A stretch of 64,000 nt of DNA from Chrysoperla carnea (taxonomy: Eukaryota; Arthropoda; Insecta; Neuroptera; Chrysopidae): assembly GCF_905475395.1 (NCBI RefSeq), contig NC_058337.1, positions 86,298,368 through 86,362,367 on the forward strand, given 5' to 3'. Each line of letters begins with the position of its first letter. Within the stretch, counting starts at the first letter, position 1. Of the stretch, positions 158-58,496 are shown piece by piece. The translations under genes were made by a program, and so were the position numbers. Under the pieces are notes generated by a model, which made no database searches, was not told where the DNA came from, and saw nothing but the letters and a program-made list of their open reading frames with translations.

Positions 158-3100
158 ACTCCCGAAGGAAAAATTGGAACTTTTAACTTAGATCATCATT
201 TTATTGGATCTGAAAATAATTCACTGTCCGTGGTACTTTATGGAGAATTAGGTACTGCTGAATTTGCACGTTTTCATCGTGCGATAAAACAACATGTACT
301 TAGTGGAAAAATTGATTATGTTATTCGTCATTTTGTAAAAGTACGTAAAATAATCTTTATTAATTTAACATATAGTATTCACGAAAAATTCATAATATAA
401 AATTACCTTGGTTAATTTTAGAGTCGACCGAATCGAAGACTCCGACTCTCTGGTTATGGCGTAGAATTACAAATGAAATCTACCGAGTATAAAGCAGAGG
501 ATGATACCAAAATCAAAGAAGATGGAACGAACGAAGATCAAAGTTCTGAAGATGAAGACGAAGAAGTGGATGGATTTAATGTTCATAAATTAAAGTAAGC
601 GTTTTGAAAAATTTATTCGAAATAAAATTGTTTATCAGATTCGAATTAAAAGATTAGAATCTTAAATTTCCTTCTGGTTTCAAATCTAAGATTTTAGCTA
701 AAAAAATTTTTTTTTTACATCATTACTGTTTTTATTATATATTATATTATATAAAAAAATATTTAAAATACATTAAAATTTTGAGATATTTAAACGCAGT
801 TTTTTGGCGCTCTCTGTTGATGACGTATAAGTACAATTTTTGACAGTTCAATGTATAATTTACACTTTAAAAAAATGAATTTACAACACAGATAATAAAA
901 AGCCGTAGAATAGTATAATTTGATGAAATACCATATGAAATGTAAGTAATTAATATAATACAGGATGTCAACAAATTTGACAAGCCCGTACTATGATGTC
1001 ACGTCCGTATAAAAATTTGAATTTCCGTTTTAGAAATTTTTAAATGCCCTCACTGAGTTACGGAAGAAAAATATTTTAACCAAATTTAAATTTCATGAAT
1101 ATTCCCTATTATTAATAAACTGAAAAATAGAAAATTCCTATCGAAACACACAGACAATTTTTTTCTAATGGCTATGCCTTTAATTTATCTGAATGTATAG
1201 AATCAATTAAAATATAGTAATTAGTATAGTATAAAATTCAAATTTTTTTCTAGAACACTTTATCCCGATATGGCATCAAACCTAGACAAATTTCGTCAAT
1301 TCCTAATCGAATCATCGAGTGAAATGGCTCCATTAAAAGTATGGCAATTCCAAGAATTAAGTTTACAAGCCGCTGAACGTATAATGCAAGCACCAAAAGA
1401 AGAAGCCTTACACGTTTTAACATACATTTCACAAAATTTCCCAATGCAAGCAAAATCTTTAGTGCGAACGGTAGTTAACAATGATTTAAAAAAGGAAATT
1501 AAATTGAATCAAGAATTATTTAGTAGCAATTTAAATTTACAACCCTCCGATACTGCTTTATTTATTAACGGAATGTTTTTCGATTTAGATATTGTCGATA
1601 TCATTTCATTGTTTGAAGTAATTCGACAAGAGCAACGTGTTATGCAAGGTCTTCATAATATTGGGGTTAGCAATAAGAGAATGTCTGCACTTTTAGAATT
1701 AGATTTGAATGAAGCAAGTAGTGGAGGGCAAGAATTCGCAATTGATATTCGAGATTCAGCTATAAATTGGATAAATGACCTCGAAACGGATTCGAAGTAT
1801 CGAGGATGGGGTTCAAGTTTAATGGATTTGCTACGTCCAACATTTCCTGGCATGTTACGGAATATTAGAAAAAATTTATATAATTTAGTATTAATTATTA
1901 ACCCGGCCTCGCTAGAAGCAAAACCATTGTTAAAACTTGCCGAATCTTTTGTAGTTCATCTTGCTCCATTGCGAGTGGGTATTGTTTTTGCTGTAAATGA
2001 TTCAAAAGATACCATGGGTAAAACTGACCCTGATATTGCTATGCTGTGTGCATATAACTATGTGGCTCAAAACAAAGATCCCGAACAAGCGTTAGGATTC
2101 TTGACCGAAGTGTACTCAAAAGTTGAAAAAGAGTTAAGTGCTGAAGACGTTATTTCAATTTTCAAAGAACTATATCCTCGTGCAGATATTGATGATGTCT
2201 TTAGTGAGGATTCAGATTATGATTTTGGACGACATTTAGCTAAAGATTTCGTCCAAAGGACTGGTTTAACGACTCCGTCTGCATTAATGAATGGAATACC
2301 TCTTTTACAATCGCAGCTAAATGCTGATGAATTTGAAGAGGCTGTTCTTACGGAAGTCATGCAACAAACACCCGTTTTTCAAAAAGCTATTTATCGCGGA
2401 GAATTTTCTGATCGGCACAATACAGTTGACTACTTAATGGATAAACCAAATGTTATGCCACGATTAAATCAACGGATTTTAACACAAGAATCGTCACAAT
2501 TTTTGGATATGACTGGATCACCAGTAAAGTTAGATGTGTCGAAATTGTTGCAAGCATCAAATCGAGATTTAACAGCAACAGCTGTTGAAAACTTTAAATA
2601 TTTTTCGATAAGTAAAAAAGAAAATACAGTGAAAATGTTGACATTTTGGGTAATTGGTGATTTAAATTGTGCTAAAACACGAGATTTGTTAGCATCAGCC
2701 TTAGCATATGCGGTAAGATTTGATATTTTTAATTAAAAAATGAATTGACTATTATCAGCATTCCAGATTGTAATGTTAATAATTTTTGGTTACAGAAATC
2801 AAATAGTGAATCACGAGTGGCGTTTATTCCAAATGTTCAAAAAGATAAACCTGGCCAAGATCAATTATTGAATAAAATTGCCTTAGCAAGTGTACAAGCA
2901 TTAACACCAGCCAAAGCATTAAGTTTTATGTTAACAATGTTACGAGAAAAAGAAATTGAACGTGATTTATCGAAATATCCAGTAAGTCATTCCTGCCTCT
3001 CATCTGTGAAAAAATTATTTTCAATTTATAATTTTTTAGGATGAAATTAGAGCAATTGTTCACGATCAAGAAATTTATTTGAAAATGTTACGAGTTTACT

Positions 3101-6100
3101 GCCAACGTGTTCTAAGTTTTGGCCCCGGGCAACGTGGTGTTGTCGCTAATGGTCGGGTATTGGGACCGTTAAACGATGATGAAACTTTGGATTTAGAAGA
3201 TTTTGTGTTACTTGAACGTCATAGTATGAGTTCGTATGGTGATAAAATTTTAAAAGCATTAAAAAAATTAAATGATGAAGACGATAGTGGTAGGTTTATA
3301 ATAAAACATATATTGATTGAAATGACATTTTGATCGGAAGTGCTCAGTAAGAATCAATCGGTCGAACGCAACCATTTAATCTTAAAAATATAGAATGTTT
3401 GAAATATATTCTTTTTCTTTTTACAGATTTAACAAGTAATCAAATGCTTCGATTAATACCACTTCTAGTATCACGACCACAAAGCCGATCTCGTTTCGAA
3501 ATTAATTTCTTTACTGATGACTACAGTGTGTTAAAATTACCAGCAGCAAATCCAAGTAAACCAGCATTCGAAATTGCTGCTATTGTTGATCCTGTATCAA
3601 GAGGTGCTCAAAAATTAGGACCAATTTTGAATAATTTACAAATGATCTTAAATTGTAACATTCGGGTTTTTCTAAATAGTGTCGATAAATGTAGTGATAT
3701 GCCACTGAAAAGGTTTGTAACGGTTAAAAATCCGTATTTGCTGAAAAGATATTAATATACGTTTTAATGTTACAGTTTTTATCGCTTCGTTTTGGAGCCC
3801 GAAGTTTTATTTACCGTAAATGGGGCACATTCTCCAGGGCCTATTGCTCGTTTTTCAGGCATGCCAACAGCACCACTGCTAACACAAAATATGCACGTAC
3901 CTGAAAATTGGCTGGTTAATGTCGTTCGAGCTGTCCATGATTTAGATAATATTCGATTAGAAGATGTAGAATCGGTAGTTCATAGTGAATATGAATTGGA
4001 GTATTTACTATTAGAAGGACACTGTTTCGAAACAACAACTGGAGCTCCTCCACGAGGATTGCAAGTTACCTTGGGAACCGAATCAAATCCTGTATTAGTT
4101 GATACAATTGTTATGGCTAATTTGGGATACTTCCAATTAAAAGCTAATCCAGGTGCATGGATTTTACGATTACGTCAAGGGCGTAGTGCTGACATCTACG
4201 ATATTATTAGGTATTAAAATTAATGATATTTATTTTTTCGAGTGTATGTTAATGTAATTTCTTTTAGCCATGAAGGTAGCGACACTCCTGCAAATTCTAA
4301 AGACATCAAAGTAGTAATTAGTTCACTTCGATCGAATATTTTGAAGTTAAAAGTGGCGAAAAAACCTGATATGAAACATATGGATTTATTGGGTGAAGAA
4401 AAATCAAATTCTGGTATTTGGAATTCAATAACAAGGTATTTTTCATGATTTTTTATGGCTTAATTTCAACTTTTATGGTTTAACTCATAATATTTTTTTA
4501 ATAACGTCCCACTATTCTTTTTTCAAAAATACTGCGAATATTCATTCATTTTCTGTTTACTGCGCTTTACATTTTTTTTTTAAATTGAGATAAATTAATT
4601 TTAAACATATTAGTTATTTTTTTATTTTCGTTTTGTGCATGGCAAAATCAGTGCGATTCATAAAATAACACGGTAATTAATTTTCTTTTAACAAAACTGT
4701 TAATTTGTGTTTTCTATCATAAAATTTTTCAATTATAGCTCATTTGGAAGTGGAACTGATGAAGAGCAAGAAGAAAAAATCAACATATTTTCAGTTGCAT
4801 CAGGTCACTTGTATGAGCGTTTCTTAAAAATTATGATGTTGTCAGTATTAAAACATACAAAAACGCCTGTTAAATTTTGGTTTTTGAAAAATTATCTTTC
4901 TCCGCAATTTAAAGTAAGTTGTTAATGTCACCAGTATTCCCTTCGATCGTAACTGGTATAAGAATGAGTAAAGTATGAAATGAAAATGGATAATTTGGCT
5001 TATATGAGTATATGTCTGCAGAATTGTCACTCATTCTGATTTTCCTAATTTAGCTGCATTAAATGTTCTCTGGATCTAACAAATACTCTATTGAGATTTT
5101 TTCTAAACTTTCTAGGACTTTTTGCCAATAATGGCCAAGAATTATGGTTTTGAATATTCTCTAGTTGAATATAAATGGCCACGATGGTTACACCAACAAA
5201 CCGAAAAACAGCGAATTATTTGGGGGTATAAAATTTTGTTCTTAGATGTACTTTTCCCTCTGGATGTTAAAAAAATCATTTTCGTTGATGCCGATCAGGT
5301 ATGACTTTATATTACATCATAGTAACATCAAAATCTTAAATACTTTTATATTATAGGTTGTTCGAGCAGACATGAAAGAATTGCGAGATTTAGATTTGGG
5401 CGGTGCTCCATACGCTTATACACCATTCTGTGATTCCCGTACCGAAATGGATGGTTTCCGATTCTGGAAACAAGGATATTGGCGTAATCATTTACAAGGA
5501 CGCAGATATCATATATCTGCTTTGTATGTTGTTGATTTGAAACGATTCAGACGTATTGCGGCTGGGGACCGTTTACGTGGACAATACCAAGCATTGAGTC
5601 AAGATCGTAACAGTTTGTCAAATTTAGATCAAGATTTACCAAATAATATGATACATCAAGTAGCAATTAAATCATTACCACAAGAATGGTTGTGGTGTGA
5701 AACTTGGTGTGATGATGAATCGAAAAAGTACGCGAAAACAATCGATTTGGTAAGATGAAAATTATGATTTAGTATTATAAAGAATGTGTCATAATGAGCT
5801 GTTCCGGATTATAAAACCGGTATTATAGATTATGTCAAATTTTAAAGCCCGACAATAATATACTGTCCTGGCCTCATTAATCCCGATTATAAAATAATGA
5901 AATAGCGATACTTGTTAATCCAAAACATTACTAATATTATTTTTGTTTTATTTTAAGTGTAATAACCCGATGACAAAAGAGGCAAAATTAAATGCGGCTG
6001 TAAGGATTGTTGAAGAATGGAAAGATTACGATAATGAAATACGAAAATTACAGCAACAATTACTTAACGGCGAATTAATAGATGAAATTAAGGAATCTTC

Positions 6101-10154: not shown

Positions 10155-11255
10155 TTACATCATTTTCATAATTTTTCTACCACTGTACACAACACTCTTT
10201 TTGATACCAGCCGTTGCAATGCCTTTTAAACTTTGTCTCACCGAGGAATTCCATACAATTTCCTTCAAACTTTCTCTCACAACATAATTACAGTCGGGAT
10301 CGTATGCAATAGCTCTTAAAACATCTTCAGTATCTTGTTTGGCTGTACCTTTATTCCAATATCGTACAAGTGCCCTTTGTGGACATTTTGGTAATTGGTT
10401 TAAATGGTGTAATTTCGCTAAAGGATGTACATCTTGACTACAATTTATAAAATAATGCGTATTACTTTTTTTATCATTCACATTTTTCGGAGTTTGAGGG
10501 TCGGCATCAAGTAACAAATTCTTATCATTTGGAATTATAATTCCAGTATTTGTAGCTGTTACTATTGGGAAATCGACATATTCTTTCATGGTTTTTACCA
10601 CCGGCAAATATAAATTTCTGAAACCAATTAATTGAGGTTTTACAATATTTTCGACTTTATTTTTGTTTTCTCCAAAAGTCATCCGAAAATCTCCACCATA
10701 ACTTATATTTGATACCGTATGATAAAACTCGTATTCAGAAAATGATTCAGGTAACATTAATAGTGCTGCATGAACAGCTGACTTAATATTTAGCTGCAAG
10801 GCAGTTTGTAGCTCAACATTTGACGCAGATTTTATAATTTCAACGGGTTTATGTAATCGCCCAGCTAAATAAATATCACACCAATCTAATAAATCTGTAA
10901 TTAAATCTTTTTTGGAAATCACTCCATATTTAATAGTTACACCTTCAATATCCACTAACGTATTAAAATAAACTTTAGCTCCAAATTTCTCTTGGAAGCG
11001 TACAATAAAACTATGACCTAAATATTTTAGACTACTATAATGACTAGGATTAATCTGAATGTTAGCTTTATGCCATCGATGTGGATTATCAACACAATAA
11101 ATTAAATCGATCATATTTTGAGTTCCTGTTGATTTTTTGGTATCATTTAATTGCTTTTTAACACCAGAACCATATGCAAAACAAAATGAAAAGTTTTGTG
11201 GAAAACGTGAAAGTATACGTGAGTATAACGGTGCAATCATTATTGGAGAATTCAT
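10155..11255 (-). CDS. Tam41: Mitochondrial phosphatidate cytidylyltransferase TAM41 (Mmp37 family)
   Basis: The enzyme makes CDP-diacylglycerol from phosphatidic acid and CTP at the mitochondrial inner membrane, the first committed step to cardiolipin. This is a single-exon gene of 366 codons from ATG to TAA. A nucleotidyltransferase-like N-terminus carries FAYGSGVKKQ near residue 28, followed by the acidic motif IDLIYCVDNP. The family signatures HRWHKANIQINPSHYS and YLGHSF come next, then KYGVISKKDLITDLLDW and YLAGRLHKPV. The length is slightly above that of the human protein. The catalytic core starts close to the N-terminus, so no long cleavable presequence is obvious; an upstream 5' exon cannot be excluded. 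The gene converges on UGGT and diverges from PARP1. The complete lack of introns differs from its neighbours. Family assignment is confident. Confidence 0.95.
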   Translation of the reverse strand: MNSPIMIAPLYSRILSRFPQNFSFCFAYGSGVKKQLNDTKKSTGTQNMIDLIYCVDNPHRWHKANIQINPSHYSSLKYLGHSFIVRFQEKFGAKVYFNTLVDIEGVTIKYGVISKKDLITDLLDWCDIYLAGRLHKPVEIIKSASNVELQTALQLNIKSAVHAALLMLPESFSEYEFYHTVSNISYGGDFRMTFGENKNKVENIVKPQLIGFRNLYLPVVKTMKEYVDFPIVTATNTGIIIPNDKNLLLDADPQTPKNVNDKKSNTHYFINCSQDVHPLAKLHHLNQLPKCPQRALVRYWNKGTAKQDTEDVLRAIAYDPDCNYVVRESLKEIVWNSSVRQSLKGIATAGIKKSVVYSGRKIMKMM

Positions 11256-13126: not shown

Positions 13127-16100
13127 ATGGAAGAACAATTACCCTATATGGCAGAATATGCGAAGACCGGGCGATCAAGTTGTAAAGGTTGTAAAACACC
13201 GATTGATAAGGATACACTTCGATTAGCAGTAATGGTTCAAGTAAGATATCCGAGATTTCTCTTGTATTGATAGCTATTTATTATAGTTGAATTAATTATC
13301 ACGTTATAGTCTCCACATTTTGATGGTCGGGTCCCAAATTGGTATCATATGAAATGTTTTTTTCAAAAACAACGTCCTAAAGCTTTGGGAGATTTTGAAA
13401 AGGTGTTGAATTTACGAATTGAAGATCAAAATAAACTTAAGGAATTTGTAGGTAAGATTTTTTTTTTTTAAAGTTTAGCTCCCAATTTTAATTAAAAATA
13501 GACTCACGCCTTATAAAAACTGGATAGTCATAATCAAAGTGTATGTTTCTGTAAGTAACCCAATAAATAAAGCTTGTTATGTTTGTACAATTAGCATTCA
13601 AGTACCTAAATAACTAACTTGAAGATTAATTATACCAAAATAAATCAACCTGAGACACTGGACACATGATTGTATAAGGTTCCTGACAAGCTTCTTTAAT
13701 TGCTGTTTTTGGTACAAAGCTTCCTTATTATTATTATAGCTAAGTTTATGAAAAATTCGTAAAAAAAGACTTCTCATTTTTTCAATTTTGGGAGCGAAAT
13801 ATTATATTTGAATAATATGTTAAGAAATAAAATTTTTCGAAAACAATAAACTACAACGTTTTGTAGTGCAAGTTTAACATTTGACTGAATTGTAATCAAT
13901 ATTATAATTGAAGACATATTAAATTCATTGAGATAACTATACCGAAGAATCAACACCAGAGCGAATAGCGTCAGACGATGATTGACATAATATTCCAATA
14001 AACTATGAAATTCTGGCTGAATCATCAATATTTCAAGTCATTAATCATAATTTCATACAGGCAATTGGACACTTTTGTCTCTAATTGCTGGTTGCTCTGA
14101 TGTGAATTCACCACAGAAGTAAAATTTTTAGCAAACAAATTTAATTACCAGTTAACAGTTTACCAAAGCAGTTTGATCGAGCTAATACTTTAGAATTTTT
14201 TTAATAAAATTCAATATAACTCAACTCTATAAAACAGTCCTAAATAAACTTATTTGCGTTACCTTAAACATTTTTTTTTGGTGCTATCTTAATCAAATTG
14301 AACACAATTTTTGATTCTTTAATTGCTTTTAACTTGATTAGATATTATTGTTTCTAATTATTGGGATTCACACCATAAAGTTCGTAAATGAGCAACATAG
14401 GTCACCAATTGGGTCTTGGTTCCGTAGGACCAGTCTTGTAAACCGTTAGAGATAGAAAAACGTTTAAATGTAAAAAGTGTTTCTTATGAAAAAATAAACT
14501 TCTCTTTGAAATATTTTTTTCGTAAACTTTACTGTTTACCCGTGAGGGCACAAATTACGTTAGAACATAAGTATGTATTTTATGGGTTATCAGTTTTGAG
14601 AAAGCTTTGTCTCAAAAATCAGCCTAGGGTATAGGGGATGAGAAACTTTAGCTTATGAGATTTACTTTAGATATGCTTAGCTTTTTTTTGGTTTCATTGT
14701 TGTACTATGAATAAATCTAATTAGTTTTATTAAAATAACCCAAAAAATTTTTACATAAAAATTTAGATCAAGTTTCCAGTGGGGTTGTATTAGCAACAGC
14801 CAAAGGAGCGAAAGGGAAAAAGCGACCTGCAAAAGGAGAAGAAAATTTAGCTCTCAAAGATTTTGTATTGGATTATTCTAAATCAAATCGTTCGACGTGT
14901 CGTGGATGTGAATTGAAAATAATGAAAAATGAAATTCGAATTTCTAAAAAAGATTTCGAAACAGATGTTGGCAAAAGATATGGTGGTCAAGATATGTGGC
15001 ATCATTTAGAATGTTTTGCTAAATTGAGATCCAGTTTATTATTCTTTGCAAGTGGAGATTGTTTACCAGGTTTCCCAATGTTAAACGCTGAAGATAAAAA
15101 ACTTGTACGAGAAAAATTACCGTAAGTAAACGCATATAATTTAAATAAATTTGAATTTTGACCCTTTTTCATTGTGGCCACATTACTGGAAAACCTGGAA
15201 ATGTCAGGGAATTCAAATTGCATTTGTAAAGTCAGGAAATTTATACGTAAAAAAAGAGAAAAGTCAGAGAATATTACGTTTATCCCTGTTCGTTATTTGT
15301 AAAGTTTTCTCTACATTTTCCGACTCTCAACGAAAAACGTTTGAGTATTATAACAACTTTTGAGCTATATTTTCAAAAAATTGAAAGTGTATACGGACAA
15401 GATCGAATCATTTTTTGCGGAAATATATAATATGTCTGAAATTATGGCAATTATCTTCATATTTTATTTAATAGTGCTATTAGTGAAAGTGATCTACCAC
15501 CAGAAGCCAAAAAAATAAAAGGTGAACCTAAGGATGAGGTTGATAAAGCCGAAGAAGCCAAGGAAGATAAGAAGTACACAAAACAAATGAAAATGTATTA
15601 TAAATATCGTGATGCTCTCAAAGCATTTCCTAAATCAGACGTACATAATTTACTGAAAAGCAACAACCAACAGCCACTTGAAGGTGTTAGCGAGGTAAGT
15701 AAATGCTTAGTTTAAATATGCATTGATTTTATTATAAACAGGCTGTTTTTTAACACGACATTTGCAAAAAAATAAAAAAATATATGACAGATATTTAAAA
15801 AAAATTCTCAATGATTTTGTGTTTAAATAAGAAACACTTCTTACATTCAAATGAATTACACCATTCTAAGAATTTTCTTAAAAAGCAATAATTTTCGCAT
15901 AAGAAATCAATGAAAAAAATCTGTTATTTTTTGCTCAGATCACAAAAAATATGCATAGAAAAATTTACATTATAGTAAAAGTTAACTTTTTTCCCCTATA
16001 AAATACTTTACAAAGCAAAAAATGCTTTCTTTACCATGTTTTTGTCTTCTTTTTGAATATTTTTTAATAATTAGAGCCTAAATTTAAGATAAAAGATAAA

Positions 16101-19100
16101 TTTAAAGCTTTTCATTATAAAGTTAACTCACAAAATTTATGGCCGATTCGGCCTCGACCATCTTCATGGAAGTCACGATTAGTCTCCATAGCATCCTGGT
16201 TAAAAGTTGTCCATCTCAATCGTATGGACCGTTTCCGAGCTATAGAAGCAAAATTGCAGTATTAATATTATGCTTGGTAAGAAATATGGATGAAAATATT
16301 ATATTTGAATGTTGTAGTTGTAGATTACATTTGTATTTCTATAACCCGAAAATGGTTTCAGATCGAGTTGCGCCTTTGGAAATTTTTATCTGAGAAGCAA
16401 GCTTTGGAGGTTAAAATCCCAAATTATTTAATTTTTCTTCTTCATTCTTTAATCATTTTCAGAATAACTAAGTTTCAATCTATTTTGTCAGTTTCAGACA
16501 TACTGCCTTTTATGTACACCAAAATTTTCGTGTTTTTCATTATTTTTTATATTTACTGTACTATTTGTTTACAATTAAATTTTTATGCCACAGAATTTGG
16601 ATTTATTAGCGGATGTGGTTACGTTTGGTGCACTATTACCGTGTACAGTGTGCAAAACAGGACAATTCTCATTTCAAAATAATGTTTACAATTGTACTGG
16701 TAATATTACTGAGTGGTCAAAATGTACACATACAGAGTCTAAACCAAAACGTAAAGCTTTTAAAGTGCCTAGTGCATATGCGGATAGTCCGATATTTAAA
16801 AATTATAAGGCTACTACATCTGATCGAATCGTTAAACAATTAATTAAAACCGTAACTGTAAAGAAAGAAGAACCTAGTGAAACCGATGGGTATGTATAAT
16901 TCTAATTATTGATACTTCGTTCCCTTTTAAATCTCCACGCTTGCCATTTCCCGTACAAGTTGTGTAAATTTGAAGAATTTATTTAGTGTTTTTCAATAAA
17001 GCAGAAATTTTTTTGTGTCTACAAATTTGAACCAATATGTTTATAAACCACCCTTCCCCTAAATTTACTATAAAGCTTTTGGAAGTATTTAATTTTTTTC
17101 TGAATTGATGATTTAAATAAAAAAATTGTTGTTTTGAAATCAAACATTACAATCATTGAAGTAATATAACTTAAAAAAAATACTGGAACTTATTTGATTC
17201 AATTTAGCCTTTCAACTTTTTGGATGTAAGTCTATTTTTCAGTAAATTCGACAACGGCGACTTTGGACATCCTCTTAGTGAACGTAGTATATTGTGTTAG
17301 TTTTTTTAAAGGAAAAATATGTAATGGTATTCAATTGTTTTTAGGCCTAAAATTAAAAGAGAGAAACCACCCCTATATAATATGGAATTTTTTATTCACA
17401 AAACGAAGGCAGCTTCAAATAGTATTGAAAAGAAAATTATACGTTTAGGTGGTCGAATTGGTAAAAAATTACATCAAAATACGATGGCAGTGATTTCCAC
17501 ACCTGAAGCATTGGAAAAATCAGAGAGTACTAGTGAAAAAGCTCGAAAGTATGACGTTCAAGTTGTTCCTGAATCTTTTTTGGAAGATATTGCAAAAGGA
17601 GGAAATTATTCGGATGTTATAAAAGCAACTAGTTTATGTGAATGGGGTTCTGAGGTTTGTATTAAAATGGAGTTAGATACAATAATAATAATAAATTGAT
17701 GAAAGATATTGAGAAATTCGCCGTAGAATAATTTAAGTTCTGTGAAGTTGAAGTGGGGCGCAATGCAACACGAGGTACAATGAAACACCGTAATGTTTGT
17801 ACCTTATTCCAAGAAAATTTCAGAACAAATTACACAACATTATCAAGTCCGGTTAACTGTGTAATTTGTTCTGAAATTTTCTTGGAATAAGGTACAAATA
17901 TTAGGGTTGTTCTATTGTACCCCGTGTTCCACTACTAAACCTCACCTTCCTATATTTGAAAAATTTTATATCTAGTTTCTTTTCCATTTAGCATTTATGT
18001 CAATATATATTTGAATAGTCTGAGTGAGGCTATGTTAAACTTGGCTTTGTGCCTCCCACTAATTTGGAATCTCGTTTTCAAGGACTTTACATTTATTTAA
18101 AAACTTTTCCATGCTAAATATAACATAAATATTTTTCGCAAATCCATAATTTTAATCTATGCGGACATACCGTTTTAAACAAAAAACTGGAACACGCAAA
18201 TAACTTTCTGGAGTCATTTTTTATAAAATCGGATTATTTAGAAATAGATTTCTGTATTTTGATTTAAATTTTAGCCAGCAACTCGTTTGATTCCTGAAAC
18301 CAAAAGTATAAGTAAAAGTGGTAAAAGTGCATATAAAAAGTCTGTATCTGGACCTGTTAAATTAAAAGTGAAAGGTGGTGGAGCTGTTGATCCCGATTCT
18401 GGACTAGAAGATGTGGCTCATGTATATCAAAAGGGTGATGATAAGTATAATGTAGTTTTAGGGAGAACTGATATTCAAACTAATAAAAATAGTTATTACA
18501 AGTTGCAAATATTGCAAGCGGATAAGGGACAAAAGTTTTGGTTATTTAGATCTTGGGGTCGTATTGGTACAACCATTGGTGGTACTAAACTTGAAGATAC
18601 GGATGGATTAAACCATGCAATTAGTATGTTTAAAGAGTTATATTTGGATAAAACGGGAAATCATTGGGATGAAAGAGCTAATTTTGTTAAAAGGCCTGGT
18701 CTTAGTTATCCAATTGATTTGGATTACGGTGAAGAAAGTGATCAAGTAAAAGGTTTAACGAAAGATGATATTTCATCCAATTCAAAATTAGCGAAACCAA
18801 TTCAAGATCTTGTACAAATGATTTTTGATATTGAAGCTATGAAAAAAACTATGTTAGAATTTGAACTTGATTTGGAAAAGATGCCACTTGGAAAATTGAG
18901 TAAAAAACAAATTGAAGCCGCTTTCGGTGTACTAAATGAGTTAAAAGAAGTGATAACAAAATCAAATGCCAAACCACAAATTATCGATTTATGTAATCGA
19001 TTTTATACAATGATTCCACACGATTTTGGTATAGATAATCCTCCGTTAATTGAAACTGAAGAAGCCATTAAAACGAAATTGGAAATGTTAGATAATTTAC

Positions 19101-21143
19101 TTGAATTAGAGGTTGCGTACGGGTTAATGCAATCTACTCATGTGGAAGGTTCTGAATCACCTTTGGATGCTCATTATGCTCAATTAAAAACTGATATCGA
19201 AATATTGGATAAAACAACCGACGAATTTGAAATAATCAAAAAATATGTGAAGAATACACATGCAAAAACTCACCAACAGTATGATCTTGAAATAGAGGAG
19301 GTTAGTTAATTTTTATATTTTGGTTTAAGTTTAAATTTTGCTAAAATTTGGTTTGCTCAATTTGTTAGGTATTTAAAATTAAACGACAAAATGAAGACAA
19401 ACGTTATAAACCATTTAAAAAATTACCAAATCGTAAACTATTGTGGCATGGTTCACGTCTTACAAATTATGCTGGAATTTTATCTCAAGGTTTACGTATT
19501 GCACCCCCAGAAGCACCAGTTACCGGTTATATGTTTGGTAAAGGTATTTATTTTGCTGATATGGTTTCAAAATCAGCAAATTATTGTTGTACAAATAAGA
19601 GGAGTCCAACTGGGTTGATGTTGTTGTGTGAGGTTGCTTTGGGTAATATGTATGTATCGCGTTCTTTTGTTTTTGTTCTTTTTGCTTTAGTTTTTGTAAA
19701 AAACTTGCATGCACTGTATAAATTTTTGGCACTTATTTCTGTTTTTTTCGGACTCACTTTAGGTATGAACGACATGAATCCGATTACATAGAAAAATTAC
19801 CTAAAGGTAAGCATAGTTGTAAAGGAGTGGGGCGTACTCAACCTAATCCAGAAGATAAAGCAGTATTGCCGGATGGTGTAGAAGTTCCTTATGGGGAAGG
19901 AGTAACCGATTCCAAATTAAAATCAGATTTGTTGTATAACGAGTATCCTTTTTATTATTGAGTTCATCATTAATTTATTTCATGTTGATACCTGATAATC
20001 TAAGAACGTGTTACGAAAAACATTCACAGTTTTTCAGTTATTAGTTAACAAAGAAGAGGTGGACACATTTTTTCGTATAAGCTTCTGAAAAATGCCCCTG
20101 TTTAGCGGAAGCATTTCTTTTGTGTGAGTAATCGATACTATCTGATATATATCTTTTAATCATAATTGACAAACTCTAGTGCAAAGCTCCTTTATATACC
20201 TTAATATTTTATTCTAAGTGTAAGGTCTAATATTAATTGCTTAAGCATGTTTGATTTCAGACATATGAATATTTTGGTATTACTCAAACACATTTTATTT
20301 TGATTACATTAAAAGTAAAAAGTAGTAGAGACCGAAGTTTGGCGTATGACCAAATCATCCTCATCGTCATAGTCCGAGCAGGTATCACTGTCTTTCAATT
20401 CCAAGAGCGATCGATTCATTTTTAGTCTGAATTGATCGGTAAGAATCAGAACTACGAGGTTAATATCTTGTCGATCTTGAGACTCTTTACCCAACAATCA
20501 TTGTTTGGATTGTTTGGAATTTTCTAATCCTTTCTATTTACCGTTCTACTCGGCCGTAAAGGGTACTCATTCACCCAAGGGGGGGATAGTCTGCCTTATA
20601 ATAATTTGTTTGTCTTCTAATATTTCCCTGACAGTGCGCGCGACTTAAAAAGGGACTTATTTCGTGGTAGGCTACAATACAATTATTTCCTACATTTAAG
20701 ATTCATGGAAGATGACTTCCCTGGGAATAAGTTGAGTGTGGCTACTAGACCGCCCAGTCTCATAGCTGCACTCATTGTCAGAGTGGCTTATTCACCCCGA
20801 TACCTACAAGAAGAGACCCCTTTTCGTAATTGGCGGGTTTTACAATGATTTCGCACATTTAACGCACTATCTCCTTTGTGTTTGCTGTTGACTTTATTAA
20901 AAATAATAATACGCATTCAGCAATATGAGTACAAAAATAATTTAATAACTATCTATGTCGTTTAAATTCCAAATAATTGATCAATTATATACGAAAATTT
21001 GCATATTGTAATATCTCTGCGTAAAGAGAAAATTTTAAATTAATTTATTTTCCTTAATTTAATAATTTAGATACATTGTGTATGATATCGCACAAGTTAA
21101 TTGCAAATATTTGCTGAAAATGAAATTCAATTATAAGTATTAA
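13127..21143 (+). CDS. Parp: Poly(ADP-ribose) polymerase 1 (PARP1), complete, 10 exons
   Basis: A nuclear DNA-break sensor that uses NAD+ to build poly(ADP-ribose) on itself and on chromatin proteins. Exons: 13127-13240, 13310-13451, 14767-15121, 15475-15694, 16594-16889, 17345-17654, 18275-19300, 19369-19649, 19763-19942, 21071-21143; 2,997 nt, 998 residues. The ATG follows an in-frame TAA. Domain order: zinc finger 1 (CKGC...HMKC, split by intron 1), zinc finger 2 (CRGC...HLEC), PADR1 with the third zinc site (PCTVC...KC), BRCT (exon 6), WGR (FRSWGRIGT), helical regulatory domain ([16 protein letters not shown]), and ART catalytic domain. The H-Y-E triad is His in LWHGS, Tyr in GIYFADM and Glu in LLYNEY. 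The Glu codon is split GA|A across the last intron, and the final exon gives [10 protein letters not shown]. Length and order match animal PARP1 (human 1,014). Introns hold repeats at about 14384-14600, 16139-16400 and 17751-17934. Confidence 0.97.
14384..14600 (+). repeat. Interspersed repeat family R1, copy 1 (PARP1 intron 2)
   Basis: This copy shares ordered blocks with four other copies in the window: GTTCGTAAATGAGCAACATAG, CCGTAGGACC, AACCGTTAGAGATAGAA, TTTAAATGT, TTCGTAAAC, and (C/T)CCGTGAGGGC. No coding capacity was seen. The unit looks like the body of an old, dispersed non-coding element. Confidence 0.75.
17751..17934. repeat. Perfect 41-bp inverted repeat with diverged outer arms (PARP1 intron 6)
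   Basis: Arms 17796-17836 and 17858-17898 are exact reverse complements, 41 of 41, around a 21-nt loop. Outer segments (17751-17795 and 17899-17934) continue the symmetry with mismatches, for example GGTACAAT against ATTGTACC and GTGG against CCAC at the ends. The whole fits a foldback MITE. If transcribed within the PARP1 pre-mRNA, it would form a very stable hairpin. Confidence 0.8.
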
Positions 21144-54907: not shown

Positions 54908-56623
54908 CTATTAACAGAAAAGAAAAGAAAAACGAATTAAAGTGGTGGAAATTTGTTTATGTTATGTAGAAGTTTTTTATTTTCACTATACCCGGCGTAT
55001 ATTTTGTACGTACAGAATGAACTAATAAAACTATTACCATGAACACTTTTCGGTAAAAATACTATGATAGGAGTGTTTAAAAATCAATAAAATTTCATTA
55101 AAAATACATTTCATCTGGCTATCAGAAGGTTAATTGAAAATAATAGATCCGGAAAAAATTGACTTAAAAATTACACGGAAAATTTTAAAGACCCGGAGTA
55201 TTGTTGTAATTACGACTTGGTTGGGTTTAGTTTGTCGACTATGGAAAAGGTGGTTAGGTTCTATCGTTTTTGGCCTCTGTGTTCAAAAATGGGACAGTAT
55301 TACAGAAATTTTTATCGGTCTATTTTTTCCGATTCTACTCTTTTCTAAATCAATATTGGTGAGTTACCTTATAGTAGATTTACTTTATACCAGAAGTTAA
55401 AAAAACCTTTTGTATCCCGTCAATTTCTCGAAGCCTTACGTGTTTATTTCTGTGCGGCATTTATGTTATTCGCTTTGAATACTTATGGAAAGTTAGTATC
55501 CAGCAACGTCGTACATATTTGCTGGTGCAGAGGTGAGATACCAAGTGGTATGACATCAATAATTTAACCTGTACCCCGCAAAGCTGACGCCATGGTGCTT
55601 AAACTTACTTTTACATATAGGAACATCCTTTTGAACATGCTTCCTAGAACTTTTTATTAGCGAATAGTAATTGTACAAGAGGTTCCCAACTCAGCCGTGA
55701 GAACCTTTTAGATATGAAGTCTGTTGGATAGAATAATGAAAAAAATGACATTTTGAAGACATAGGCAATTTTGGAACAATCATAGTCCTTAAAAAGAAAC
55801 GATTCGTAATTCACACAGCAAAAATTTGACTAATTTGGTTTTTCGGCTTAGTCTTTGGTATAATAAATTTATTTTCTCTGTAAACCATGGAAACACTAAA
55901 AATGACTTATCACAGATTATATTAAAAGGTATCGCCAACTTTTGTAAATGAATGTTTTTTATTATTATATACACATAAAAATCTATTTTGCTTTTATTTA
56001 TCTTAAAATTGGAAAATTTCTTTCTTGTGAACACACATGAGAATGAGAAAGCAAAGAAAATTCCGACCGATTCATTGGTTAATTTGACTAAGTAAGTGAC
56101 TATAAAGTGTGCTTCTAATCCAATTAATCTACGGAGGACCAATGTTAAATTTGACAAAATTGCTATCAAAAAACAAACATTCTTAATTTTCGCTTTGTTT
56201 AAGTGTGTTTGACGATATTTTGTTCTCAAATTGTGGCGCCACAGTTATCGTACTCTCCCCCCTTAGCTATAGCTAAAGTTGTAAAAAACAACTACTCTAT
56301 TTAAAGTGCTCTGTCTTTTATCAGTAAGCTCGAGATGGTATCCGGATTACCTAGCAAGTCAAGATGAAGTTCAATGTATCTAAAATATGCTATCATTCTG
56401 CACCCTTTTAGACCTACAAAATTTTACTTACACTACAAAAATTTTTTCATTTTCAATGAAAATTGTCCACCGTTTATATAAATTTGTTGTAAGTGTTTTT
56501 AATTATGGTTATACCTGTTTTTGTAGAGCTTTCAAAATAAATTATTATGTTACTGTTTATTGTTTATTATAAAAAATTGCATTTAATTTCTTTTTTCTTT
56601 TTAGAACATAAAATTATTAATGA
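54908..56623. other. Region between the NALF exon and the H3-like gene
   Basis: No further NALF exon was recognised. A minus-strand open frame at 55789-56229 runs 146 codons but contains no ATG. Two perfect palindromes, TGTGGCGCCACA (56232-56243) and TTAGCTATAGCTAA (56263-56276), lie 350-390 bp before the H3-like start. TTCTTTTTAG at 56595-56604 would serve as a 3' splice site for a 5' UTR intron. Confidence 0.5.
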
Positions 56624-56986
56624 ATGGCCTCAAATAGGTCCAGAAGTACTGGAGAATCAATTATATGGCGTAGACGTAATATTTATCGTCGACGTTATAG
56701 TTATTACGATAACATATTTCGTGAAATACGTCATTATCAACGGACAACAAATTCATTAGTGCCAAAAGCAGCAATTGTACGGGTGATTAAAAGTATATTA
56801 CCGCAACATATACGTATACAACGGTCAGCTGTTGAAGCATTACAAGAATCTGTTGAGGTGTATATTGTTCAATTTTTAAGTGATTCTGACTTATGTACGT
56901 TTAATGCTAAGAGAAGAACATTAATGACCAAAGATATGTTATTGACACGTCGCATACGTGGTCGGGCTGATATTATTAATAAATAA
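56624..56986 (+). CDS. Diverged histone H3, probable centromeric H3 (CenH3/CENP-A/Cid)
   Basis: A 120-residue, intronless ORF; a TGA immediately before the ATG fixes the start. The histone fold is clear: alphaN as FREIRHYQRTT, alpha1/loop 1/alpha2 as RIQRSAVEALQE and VEVYIVQ, then SDLCTFNAKR and the C-terminal RRIRGRAD. Against canonical H3 the alpha1 entry is rewritten (KAAIVRVIKSI). The tail is only about 30 residues, rich in Arg and Tyr (WRRRNIYRRRYSYY), with none of the H3 tail lysines K4, K9, K27 or K36 in recognisable context. Four residues extend past the usual end. Divergence concentrated in the tail and alpha1 fits CenH3, which marks centromeres for kinetochore assembly. Against this, loop 1 has no insertion and LC is kept as in H3. 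A germline H3 variant is the main alternative. H3-family membership is near certain; the centromeric role is inferred. Confidence 0.85.
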   Translation: MASNRSRSTGESIIWRRRNIYRRRYSYYDNIFREIRHYQRTTNSLVPKAAIVRVIKSILPQHIRIQRSAVEALQESVEVYIVQFLSDSDLCTFNAKRRTLMTKDMLLTRRIRGRADIINK

Positions 56987-56992
56987 AGTTTG

Positions 56993-56998
56993 AATAAA
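56993..56998 (+). terminator. Candidate poly(A) signal for the H3-like gene
   Basis: AATAAA lies 6 nt after the TAA stop; overlapping hexamers also occur at the stop itself. It suggests a polyadenylated transcript. I saw no stem-loop of the replication-dependent histone type just downstream, which fits a replacement or centromeric variant. Confidence 0.5.
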
Positions 56999-57530
56999 AA
57001 ATATCATTATTTTATTATAAATAATCTAGAAGTAAAATAGTAATTTCATAGAGATAATTGTTTCAAAACTCGATTTACTCCAGATTATTATGTCACTTCA
57101 TACAATGTAGTTAAGGGTACTCCACATTAAAATTCAAAGTCCTAATGTGTAAGTGGATCAATTATTGTATAGTAAATACGTTTCGTCTGACAAAGTACTT
57201 AACACCGAAAAGAATTAGCTCGTCGTTAAATTGATTTCTTTTTATTCGTGGTCTCATATTAAAAAAGAGGAAATGGAAACGGGAGTTATTGATCTGGAAC
57301 GGGAGTTTAGACCGGAAATCGCTAATTTTTATCGACAGCTGAATAAATTCGGAAGAAGTGATCTATCTCTCTAAAGTAGGTGTCATGGGGAGAAGTTAAA
57401 ATCTGTGTCATTTTTATTTTAAATTTGATTGGTTACTTTAAATTGATCGCGTGATTTAAATTTAATTTAGAAAAATAAAAAATTTTTATTTACAAAACAG
57501 TAATCTCATTATTATTTTTACTTATTGTTG

Positions 57531-57960
57531 TTGTTTACATTTAATCATGCACACGATATTTACATCATGGTCGACATGGTCATTCGACTATATTTTGATA
57601 TAATATGTTACATACAGGCGTAAACTAAATATTGACAAACATCTTGACTAGTAATCTTAATTAAAGAGAATTGAAAAAAATACACTCGAACCAGGACTCG
57701 AACTCGGACTTCTTGGATTCATGTCAAGTGCCCTACCAATTAGGCTATTCTAGTTCTAGACACGAATGCAATTTTTTCAACTCAATGAATTTTTTAAATT
57801 TGTTTATCCACTTATTTATTATATATTATTACTTATTGTTGTTGTTTACATTTAATCATGCACACGATATTTAGATCATGGTCTATTCGACTATATTTTG
57901 ATATAATATATTATACAGGCGTAAACTAAATATTGACAAATATCTTGTCTAGTAATCTTA
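57531..57960 (+). repeat. 130-bp direct repeat flanking a tRNA-like relic
   Basis: Copies at 57531-57660 and 57832-57960 share CTTATTGTTGTTGTTTACAT, AATCATGCACACGATATTTA, CATTCGACTATATTTTGATA with small changes, GGCGTAAACTAAATATTGAC and AGTAATCTTAAT. The period is 301 bp. The 170-bp spacer holds the tRNA-like unit. Confidence 0.8.
57685..57755 (-). repeat. tRNA-derived SINE-like unit
   Basis: On the minus strand an A box (TAGCCTAATTGG, 57747-57736) and a B box (GAGTTCGAGTC, 57705-57695) are about 30 nt apart, as in Pol III type-2 promoters. Anticodon and T stems are mismatched and the acceptor stem does not close, so it is not a working tRNA. Confidence 0.6.
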
Positions 57961-58414
57961 ATCCCACCAAAAACATAAATGTGAAAAAGGCGTAGATGTC
58001 ACAGAACCCCAATAAACTCAATTACGTCAGCCCAAAAAAGTTGTGAAATCCCGTAGAGAAAAAAATTCTTCGAAAAAAATTTATAAAAATGGCATAAATT
58101 TATTGAGTAACTTTTCCGTAAAGAAGCATTAAAGTATTACATTAACAAATTTTCGGTGACTTCATACCTACACGCACCTGTATAGGAGAACAAAAGATAA
58201 TCGTTAACCCCCTACTATCTCCCTCCTCCCCTCTAATGTTATGACGTAATAATTTTTTCACAACTTTTATGAAACATCAAAATTTAAATTTAAACAATCA
58301 AAGTATTCTTTAGATTATAGTCAAGCCCCTACTTAACAAAGGCCTAATTTTTTTTACTAAAGTAAGAAAATTATTGGTTTAAATTTCTTGTCAAGTTTCT
58401 CCTTAGTACGTATT

Positions 58415-58496
58415 TATTTAATATTTTACTTCGCAAGTTTTTTATTTTTAGATTCGTTTTTATATTCCGAAAACTTGCGAAGTAAAATATTAAATA
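58415..58496. repeat. Perfect 27-bp inverted repeat (82-nt hairpin)
   Basis: The arms 58415-58441 and 58470-58496 are exact reverse complements with a 28-nt loop. They contain ATTTTACTTCGCAAGTTTT and its complement. Size is near that of a pre-miRNA, but perfect pairing and AT richness favour a minimal foldback element. Confidence 0.8.

Follow-up and report, generated by a model that had tools for sequence, protein, structure and literature searches.

A candidate centromeric histone H3 (CenH3) gene with a shortened loop 1 region in the lacewing Chrysoperla carnea

Locus and gene model

The window analyzed here is a stretch of 64,000 nucleotides from chromosome 1 of Chrysoperla carnea (contig C1, 139,979,878 bases; positions 86,298,368 to 86,362,367), and the genome that was searched comprises 559,487,470 bases in 337 contigs. 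An open reading frame (ORF) on the forward strand of this window encodes a divergent histone H3 variant (Table 1). The coordinates, strand, length, and H3 fold given for this ORF in a preliminary description of the DNA were found to be correct. The translated product matches the Pfam Histone family with an E-value of 1.9e-22 and a score of 80.2 bits, well above the curated cutoff of 26.4, and its top PDB matches are H3 chains, as expected for an H3-type histone fold. The mean codon log-odds of the ORF was determined to be 0.129, which exceeds by a narrow margin the maximum of 0.120 found for 63 noncoding frames of at least 60 codons and lies below the values for all seven training exons (0.163–0.393). 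A nucleotide-level search with an 851-base query covering the gene and its surroundings returned the gene itself as the sole match, and it is thus present as a single copy at the DNA level. The ORF is real and more than a product of chance.

Table 1. Features of the candidate CenH3 gene and of its predicted protein (window coordinates)
Feature	Position	Strand	Description or basis
Possible core promoter	56298..56325	+	TATTTAAAG and then an initiator-like TCAGT, roughly 300 bases upstream of the ATG; weak, inferred
Possible 5'-UTR intron	56489..56604	+	116 bases; GTAAGT donor at 56489, pyrimidine-rich acceptor ending with AG at 56604; inferred
In-frame stop codons	56618..56623	+	TAA TGA directly before the ATG; sequence reading
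Candidate CenH3 coding region, divergent histone H3 variant	56624..56986	+	120 aa; Pfam, PDB, codon use, single DNA copy
N-terminal tail	56624..56719	+	32 residues, with 8 Arg, 4 Tyr, and 0 Lys; translation
αN helix and histone fold	56720..56962	+	REIR to the end of RRIR; α1-L1 shortened, V/I/S at 68/84/107; alignments
C-terminal tail	56963..56983	+	around RADIINK, two isoleucines, four residues longer than H3; translation, alignment
AATAAA signals	56978..56998	+	at 56978, 56982, and 56993, at or just after the stop codon

The gene had initially been called intronless. This holds for the coding region, which is uninterrupted, but probably not for the gene as a whole. Of the window's 1388 YAG sites, only five carry 15 or more pyrimidines in 17 positions, and the splice acceptor located 19 bases upstream of the ATG is one of them. 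Given the strength of this acceptor, an intron in the 5'-UTR of the candidate CenH3 gene is likely. The GTAAGT sequence of the proposed donor occurs 22 times on the forward strand of the window. TCAGT is the initiator consensus, and combinations of a TATA-like element with TCAGT are found three times on the same strand, one of them being the possible core promoter listed in Table 1. Since the in-frame TAA and TGA codons immediately precede the ATG, the short length of the N-terminal tail is firm.

The 3' end of the gene is unlike that expected of a replication-dependent H3 gene, which would be located in a histone repeat and carry a 3' stem-loop. The lacewing gene is instead a dispersed single copy on chromosome 1 with AATAAA signals, and there was no match to the Histone3 model within an E-value of 1 at its locus (L001). 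This model is not very sensitive, as the canonical histone repeat (L016) gave only two matches, both below the gathering score. The short, single-exon coding region is the sole point that would suggest that the histone passed between the host and a virus or another mobile element. We consider such a transfer to be extremely improbable, because the gene is single copy at the DNA level, its codon use resembles that of the neighboring host genes, and none of the 22 pattern matches in viral contigs encodes a relative in a tblastn search, which finds close relatives only.

From their protein sequences, we take the neighboring genes to be those for UGGT (1270–5758), TAMM41 (10155–11255), and PARP1 (13128–19950). 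The TAMM41-like neighbor consists of a single coding exon on the minus strand. A tRNA-Ser gene (TGA) lies on the minus strand at positions 57683–57754, between two direct repeats (57513–57661 and 57824–57962) that are about 300 bases apart, and a perfect inverted repeat of 27 nucleotides with a 28-nucleotide spacer is found at 58415–58496. Genome-wide, arrays of five TTAGG units gave 196 + 262 matches, versus 1 + 1 for the reversed control. Short TTAGG arrays are found inside chromosome 1 (for example, at 68107279–68107448), and none was located at the end of C1 among the matches listed. The title of a cited paper states that the canonical insect telomere is absent in Neuroptera.

Anatomy of the predicted protein

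The preliminary description had reported an Arg/Tyr-rich tail of about 30 residues without the modifiable lysines, a rewritten α1 helix, and four extra residues after RRIRG, and the translation and alignments bear out each of these features. The REIR sequence begins at residue 33 in the lacewing protein versus residue 49 in H3. The first lysine is residue 48, whereas the tail of the canonical H3 from C. carnea contains eight lysines. There is no H3 tail motif in the N-terminus, and the tail is fully divergent. Within α1, the KLPFQRLVREI sequence of H3 is replaced by KAAIVRVIKSI. The RRIRG sequence is followed by seven residues (RADIINK) in the variant and by three (ERA) in H3.

The absence of an insertion in loop 1 was also correctly noted, but the change goes further than this, as the α1-L1 region is actually shortened by a deletion. 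From R69 to the start of α2, there are 13 residues in the lacewing variant and 16 in H3. The corresponding lengths are 18 in human CENP-A, 18 in Drosophila Cid, 19 in Cse4, 22 in Cnp1, and 18 in Arabidopsis CENH3. The longer loop 1 of the CenH3 family is thus lacking in the lacewing protein, which is three residues shorter than H3 and five residues shorter than CENP-A or Cid in this region. The three H3 residues Q68, F84, and T107 are lost and replaced by V, I, and S, respectively. The lacewing protein also has R63P, which is common to Drosophila Cid and Arabidopsis CENH3.

Fifteen of the 19 residues that are invariant in the eight reference proteins are kept in the lacewing variant, which argues that the fold is under constraint; the four changes are I62V, F67I, L100I, and H113N. 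This bears on the reading that the gene is a decaying or taxonomically restricted derivative of H3 without a function, in which the short helix would reflect lost constraint. The changes at these four otherwise invariant positions, F67I and H113N among them, and the long branch of the protein in the tree described below (1.98 changes per column) would fit with such decay, but the uninterrupted frame of 120 codons, its gene-like codon use, the poly(A) signals, the strong splice acceptor, and the invariant residues that are kept make it very unlikely. A single-sequence AlphaFold model of the protein (mean pLDDT of 52.2 and pTM of 0.33) was too poor for use.

Searches for other H3 genes and kinetochore partners in the genome

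When the lacewing protein was used as the query against the genome, at least 150 places were matched; those listed comprise the candidate gene and 149 further places at 44–46% identity. Four of these further places were read: two hold canonical H3 genes that are intact, and the H3 genes at the other two are broken. Since no other place scored above canonical H3 among the matches listed for this query, the candidate has no close paralogue there. With Cid as the query, there were at least 150 matches, and all of those listed are in the score range of the canonical repeats. The candidate gene itself is absent among the matches listed for Cid, and therefore true relatives can be hidden in such a search. 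A query with H3.3 also gave at least 150 matches, and those listed are, without exception, 97% matches to the canonical type of repeat. The sole noncanonical gene with an H3 fold among the matches listed is the candidate CenH3. In a leave-one-out test of the profile search with five reference CenH3s and the lacewing protein, none of the six held-out sequences outscored canonical H3, so that canonical copies would swamp a profile search for a second CenH3 as well.

The canonical histone genes are arranged in tandem repeats of approximately 6.48 kb in which a 5S rRNA gene is present as well; these repeats are found at C6 1–267,000, on C7, and on many small contigs (L016). In some of the histone units, a reverse-transcriptase-like ORF (MYLDRTLSFVPHINHLISRG...) is inserted (L003 2812–3264 and L008 2797–3249), which by eye is LINE-like.

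A search of the genome for CENP-C with Pfam PF11699 gave three subthreshold matches with a best E-value of 1.92, and the human CENP-C query gave a single match (E-value of 1.03) that contains a stop codon; both searches are insensitive for divergent insect proteins. The best PF11699 match is an open frame that was read as a LINE ORF1, and neither search gave a credible CENP-C. There was no credible match in the genome for Scm3 by Pfam, a search that is likewise insensitive for divergent insect proteins and for which 14 control genomes were equally silent.

Assignment as a candidate CenH3

A CenH3 is to be expected in the genome of C. carnea, since Neuroptera is listed among the monocentric orders in one study, and the insect survey by Drinnenberg reports that the surveyed monocentric orders have CenH3. 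According to the same survey, CenH3 is distinguished by a longer loop 1 together with a divergent tail. The study on Tribolium castaneum (PMC7598501) recognizes CenH3 by a lengthened loop 1 and by the loss of Q69, F85, and T108, which are counted with the initiating Met and are equivalent to Q68, F84, and T107 of H3 as numbered here. In the portions of the literature that were accessible, which leave most subscription journals outside of coverage, we found no description of a neuropteran CenH3, nothing for CENP-A combined with Chrysoperla, and no paper for the CenH3 peptide strings. The gene may already bear an automatic CENP-A name in the RefSeq annotation.

Of the described systems, cCENH3 from T. 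castaneum can be compared with the lacewing variant through its published description (PMC7598501). Its coding sequence is intronless and 378 bp in length, versus 363 bp in the lacewing. Both proteins have a divergent tail and both are without the same three H3 residues, and the identity of the histone fold domain to H3 is approximately 51% for cCENH3 and 48% over 81 columns for the lacewing protein. Unlike the lacewing variant, cCENH3 has a longer loop 1, and its localization at the centromere has been demonstrated (PMC7598501).

Cid from Drosophila melanogaster is like the lacewing protein in having R63P (LIPK/LVPK), T107S, I119L, I124M, A111T, and no H3 tail, but it is a protein of 225 residues with a much longer tail, a longer α1-L1 region (18 residues versus 13), and a more divergent α3. 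Human CENP-A shares an Arg-rich tail, the changes at Q68, F84, and T107, and a C-terminus that is longer than that of H3, whereas its loop 1 is two residues longer than in H3 and its C-terminal tail is LEEGLG as opposed to RADIINK. The sequence used for Arabidopsis CENH3 is an unverified one. It gave the highest pairwise score among the references (180, with 40 of 82 residues identical to the lacewing protein) and shares R63P, L65A, and T107S with the variant; it differs in having F84W and an α1-L1 region two residues longer than that of H3. The canonical H3 of C. carnea and H3.3 share the H3 fold with the variant, which is identical to this canonical H3 at 39 of the 81 aligned positions. The canonical H3 differs in its tail with eight lysines and in being encoded in tandem histone repeats, whereas the variant is a single dispersed copy.

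The closest PDB matches of the lacewing protein are canonical H3 and not CENP-A (best E-value of 4.8e-18). For the accepted CenH3s Cse4 and Cnp1 and the unverified Arabidopsis CENH3, H3 is likewise the top-scoring or almost the top-scoring match. A site was called CenH3-diagnostic when it is identical in the three H3s but different from them in four or more of the five reference CenH3s, and there are 15 such sites. The lacewing protein differs from H3 at all 11 of those that could be aligned (the other four are deleted), compared with 39 of 80 positions elsewhere (Fisher p = 0.00086). The reference sequences of Cid (PDB 6xws), CENP-A (PDB 3nqu), Cse4, and Cnp1 were checked letter by letter over their PDB-aligned parts.

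The lacewing protein scores 87.6 bits with a profile of the five CenH3s and 73.4 bits with a profile of the three H3s, a difference of +14.2. In 600 simulations of H3 divergence that included the deletion seen in the lacewing protein, this difference was never reached (maximum of 12.5). With the four PDB-verified CenH3s and no Arabidopsis sequence, the difference is 6.4, which was reached by 5 of 300 simulations at CenH3 rates and by none of 300 at uniform rates. The difference falls to −12.8 with CENP-A and Cid only (reached by 48 of 300 and 0 of 300 simulations, respectively) and to −2.6 with Cse4 and Cnp1 only (56 of 300 and 1 of 300). When each reference was left out in turn, the differences were determined to be +13.0 for CENP-A, +16.1 for Cid, −12.0 for Cse4, −6.1 for Cnp1, and −8.4 for Arabidopsis CENH3. 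The profile test thus discriminates poorly, because the H3 profile gives the higher score for three of the five accepted CenH3s when they are left out. The profile support for a CenH3 is real but moderate, and part of it derives from the unverified Arabidopsis sequence; the scores lean toward CenH3, and they do so clearly only when that sequence is included.

A phylogeny of H3 and CenH3 was constructed from nine sequences. It gives no placement and is not counted as support, as neither the grouping of the lacewing protein with the CenH3s (p = 0.279) nor that with the H3s (p = 0.267) is rejected. There is no starred branch in this tree, and the best tree joins the lacewing protein with Arabidopsis CENH3 at a support of 60/76, which is not significant.

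The unrejected grouping with H3 and the shortening, rather than lengthening, of loop 1 would both be compatible with a noncentromeric H3 variant of Neuroptera, such as one of germline or sperm chromatin whose H3 tail was lost following a duplication, in which case another locus in the genome would encode the true CenH3. A separate CenH3 could indeed hide in the genome, as the matches listed for the H3.3 query are of the canonical repeat type. We nevertheless regard this explanation as unlikely, since the tail is wholly non-H3, every aligned CenH3-diagnostic site is changed, and no close paralogue was found among the matches listed. To our knowledge, germline H3 variants keep the H3 tail.

The gene from chromosome 1 probably encodes the CenH3 (CENP-A) of C. 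carnea, the protein that would replace H3 in centromeric nucleosomes. This identity, suggested in the preliminary description, agrees with the tail, the residue changes, the single gene, the poly(A) signals, and the lack of a stem-loop match, but not with the expectation of a longer loop 1. Because the longer loop 1 is missing, we designate the gene as a candidate CenH3 and not as an established member of the family. In the CenH3 family, a longer loop 1 is customary and useful for diagnosis, but it does not define the family functionally. On balance, we favor the interpretation that the gene encodes a functional insect CenH3, which would apparently be the first described for Neuroptera, whose α1-loop 1 region is shorter than that of H3 and whose targeting and chaperone recognition would proceed via other residues.

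In human CENP-A, the centromere-targeting domain includes the longer loop 1, and the LEEGLG tail docks the CENP-C motif. The lacewing variant would pair with H4 through the conserved fold, and a dedicated chaperone may recognize the altered surface of α1 and α2 in place of a lengthened loop 1. By analogy with LEEGLG, the hydrophobic C-terminal RADIINK sequence could dock the CENP-C motif. The shortened α1-L1 region would be a lineage-specific change. According to a 2026 preprint, chaperones of the HJURP/CAL1 type are found in all major arthropod clades, and a chaperone of this kind is therefore expected in the lacewing.

The longer loop 1 serves to recognize CenH3 genes in new genomes. If the lacewing gene does encode a CenH3, then a lengthened loop 1 would be dispensable for this family, and searches for CenH3 that rely on this feature can miss genes. 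It would also document a CenH3 in an order that we did not find covered in the available text of the insect survey, and the shortened loop would provide a natural deletion for testing how the chaperones of CENP-A choose their histone.
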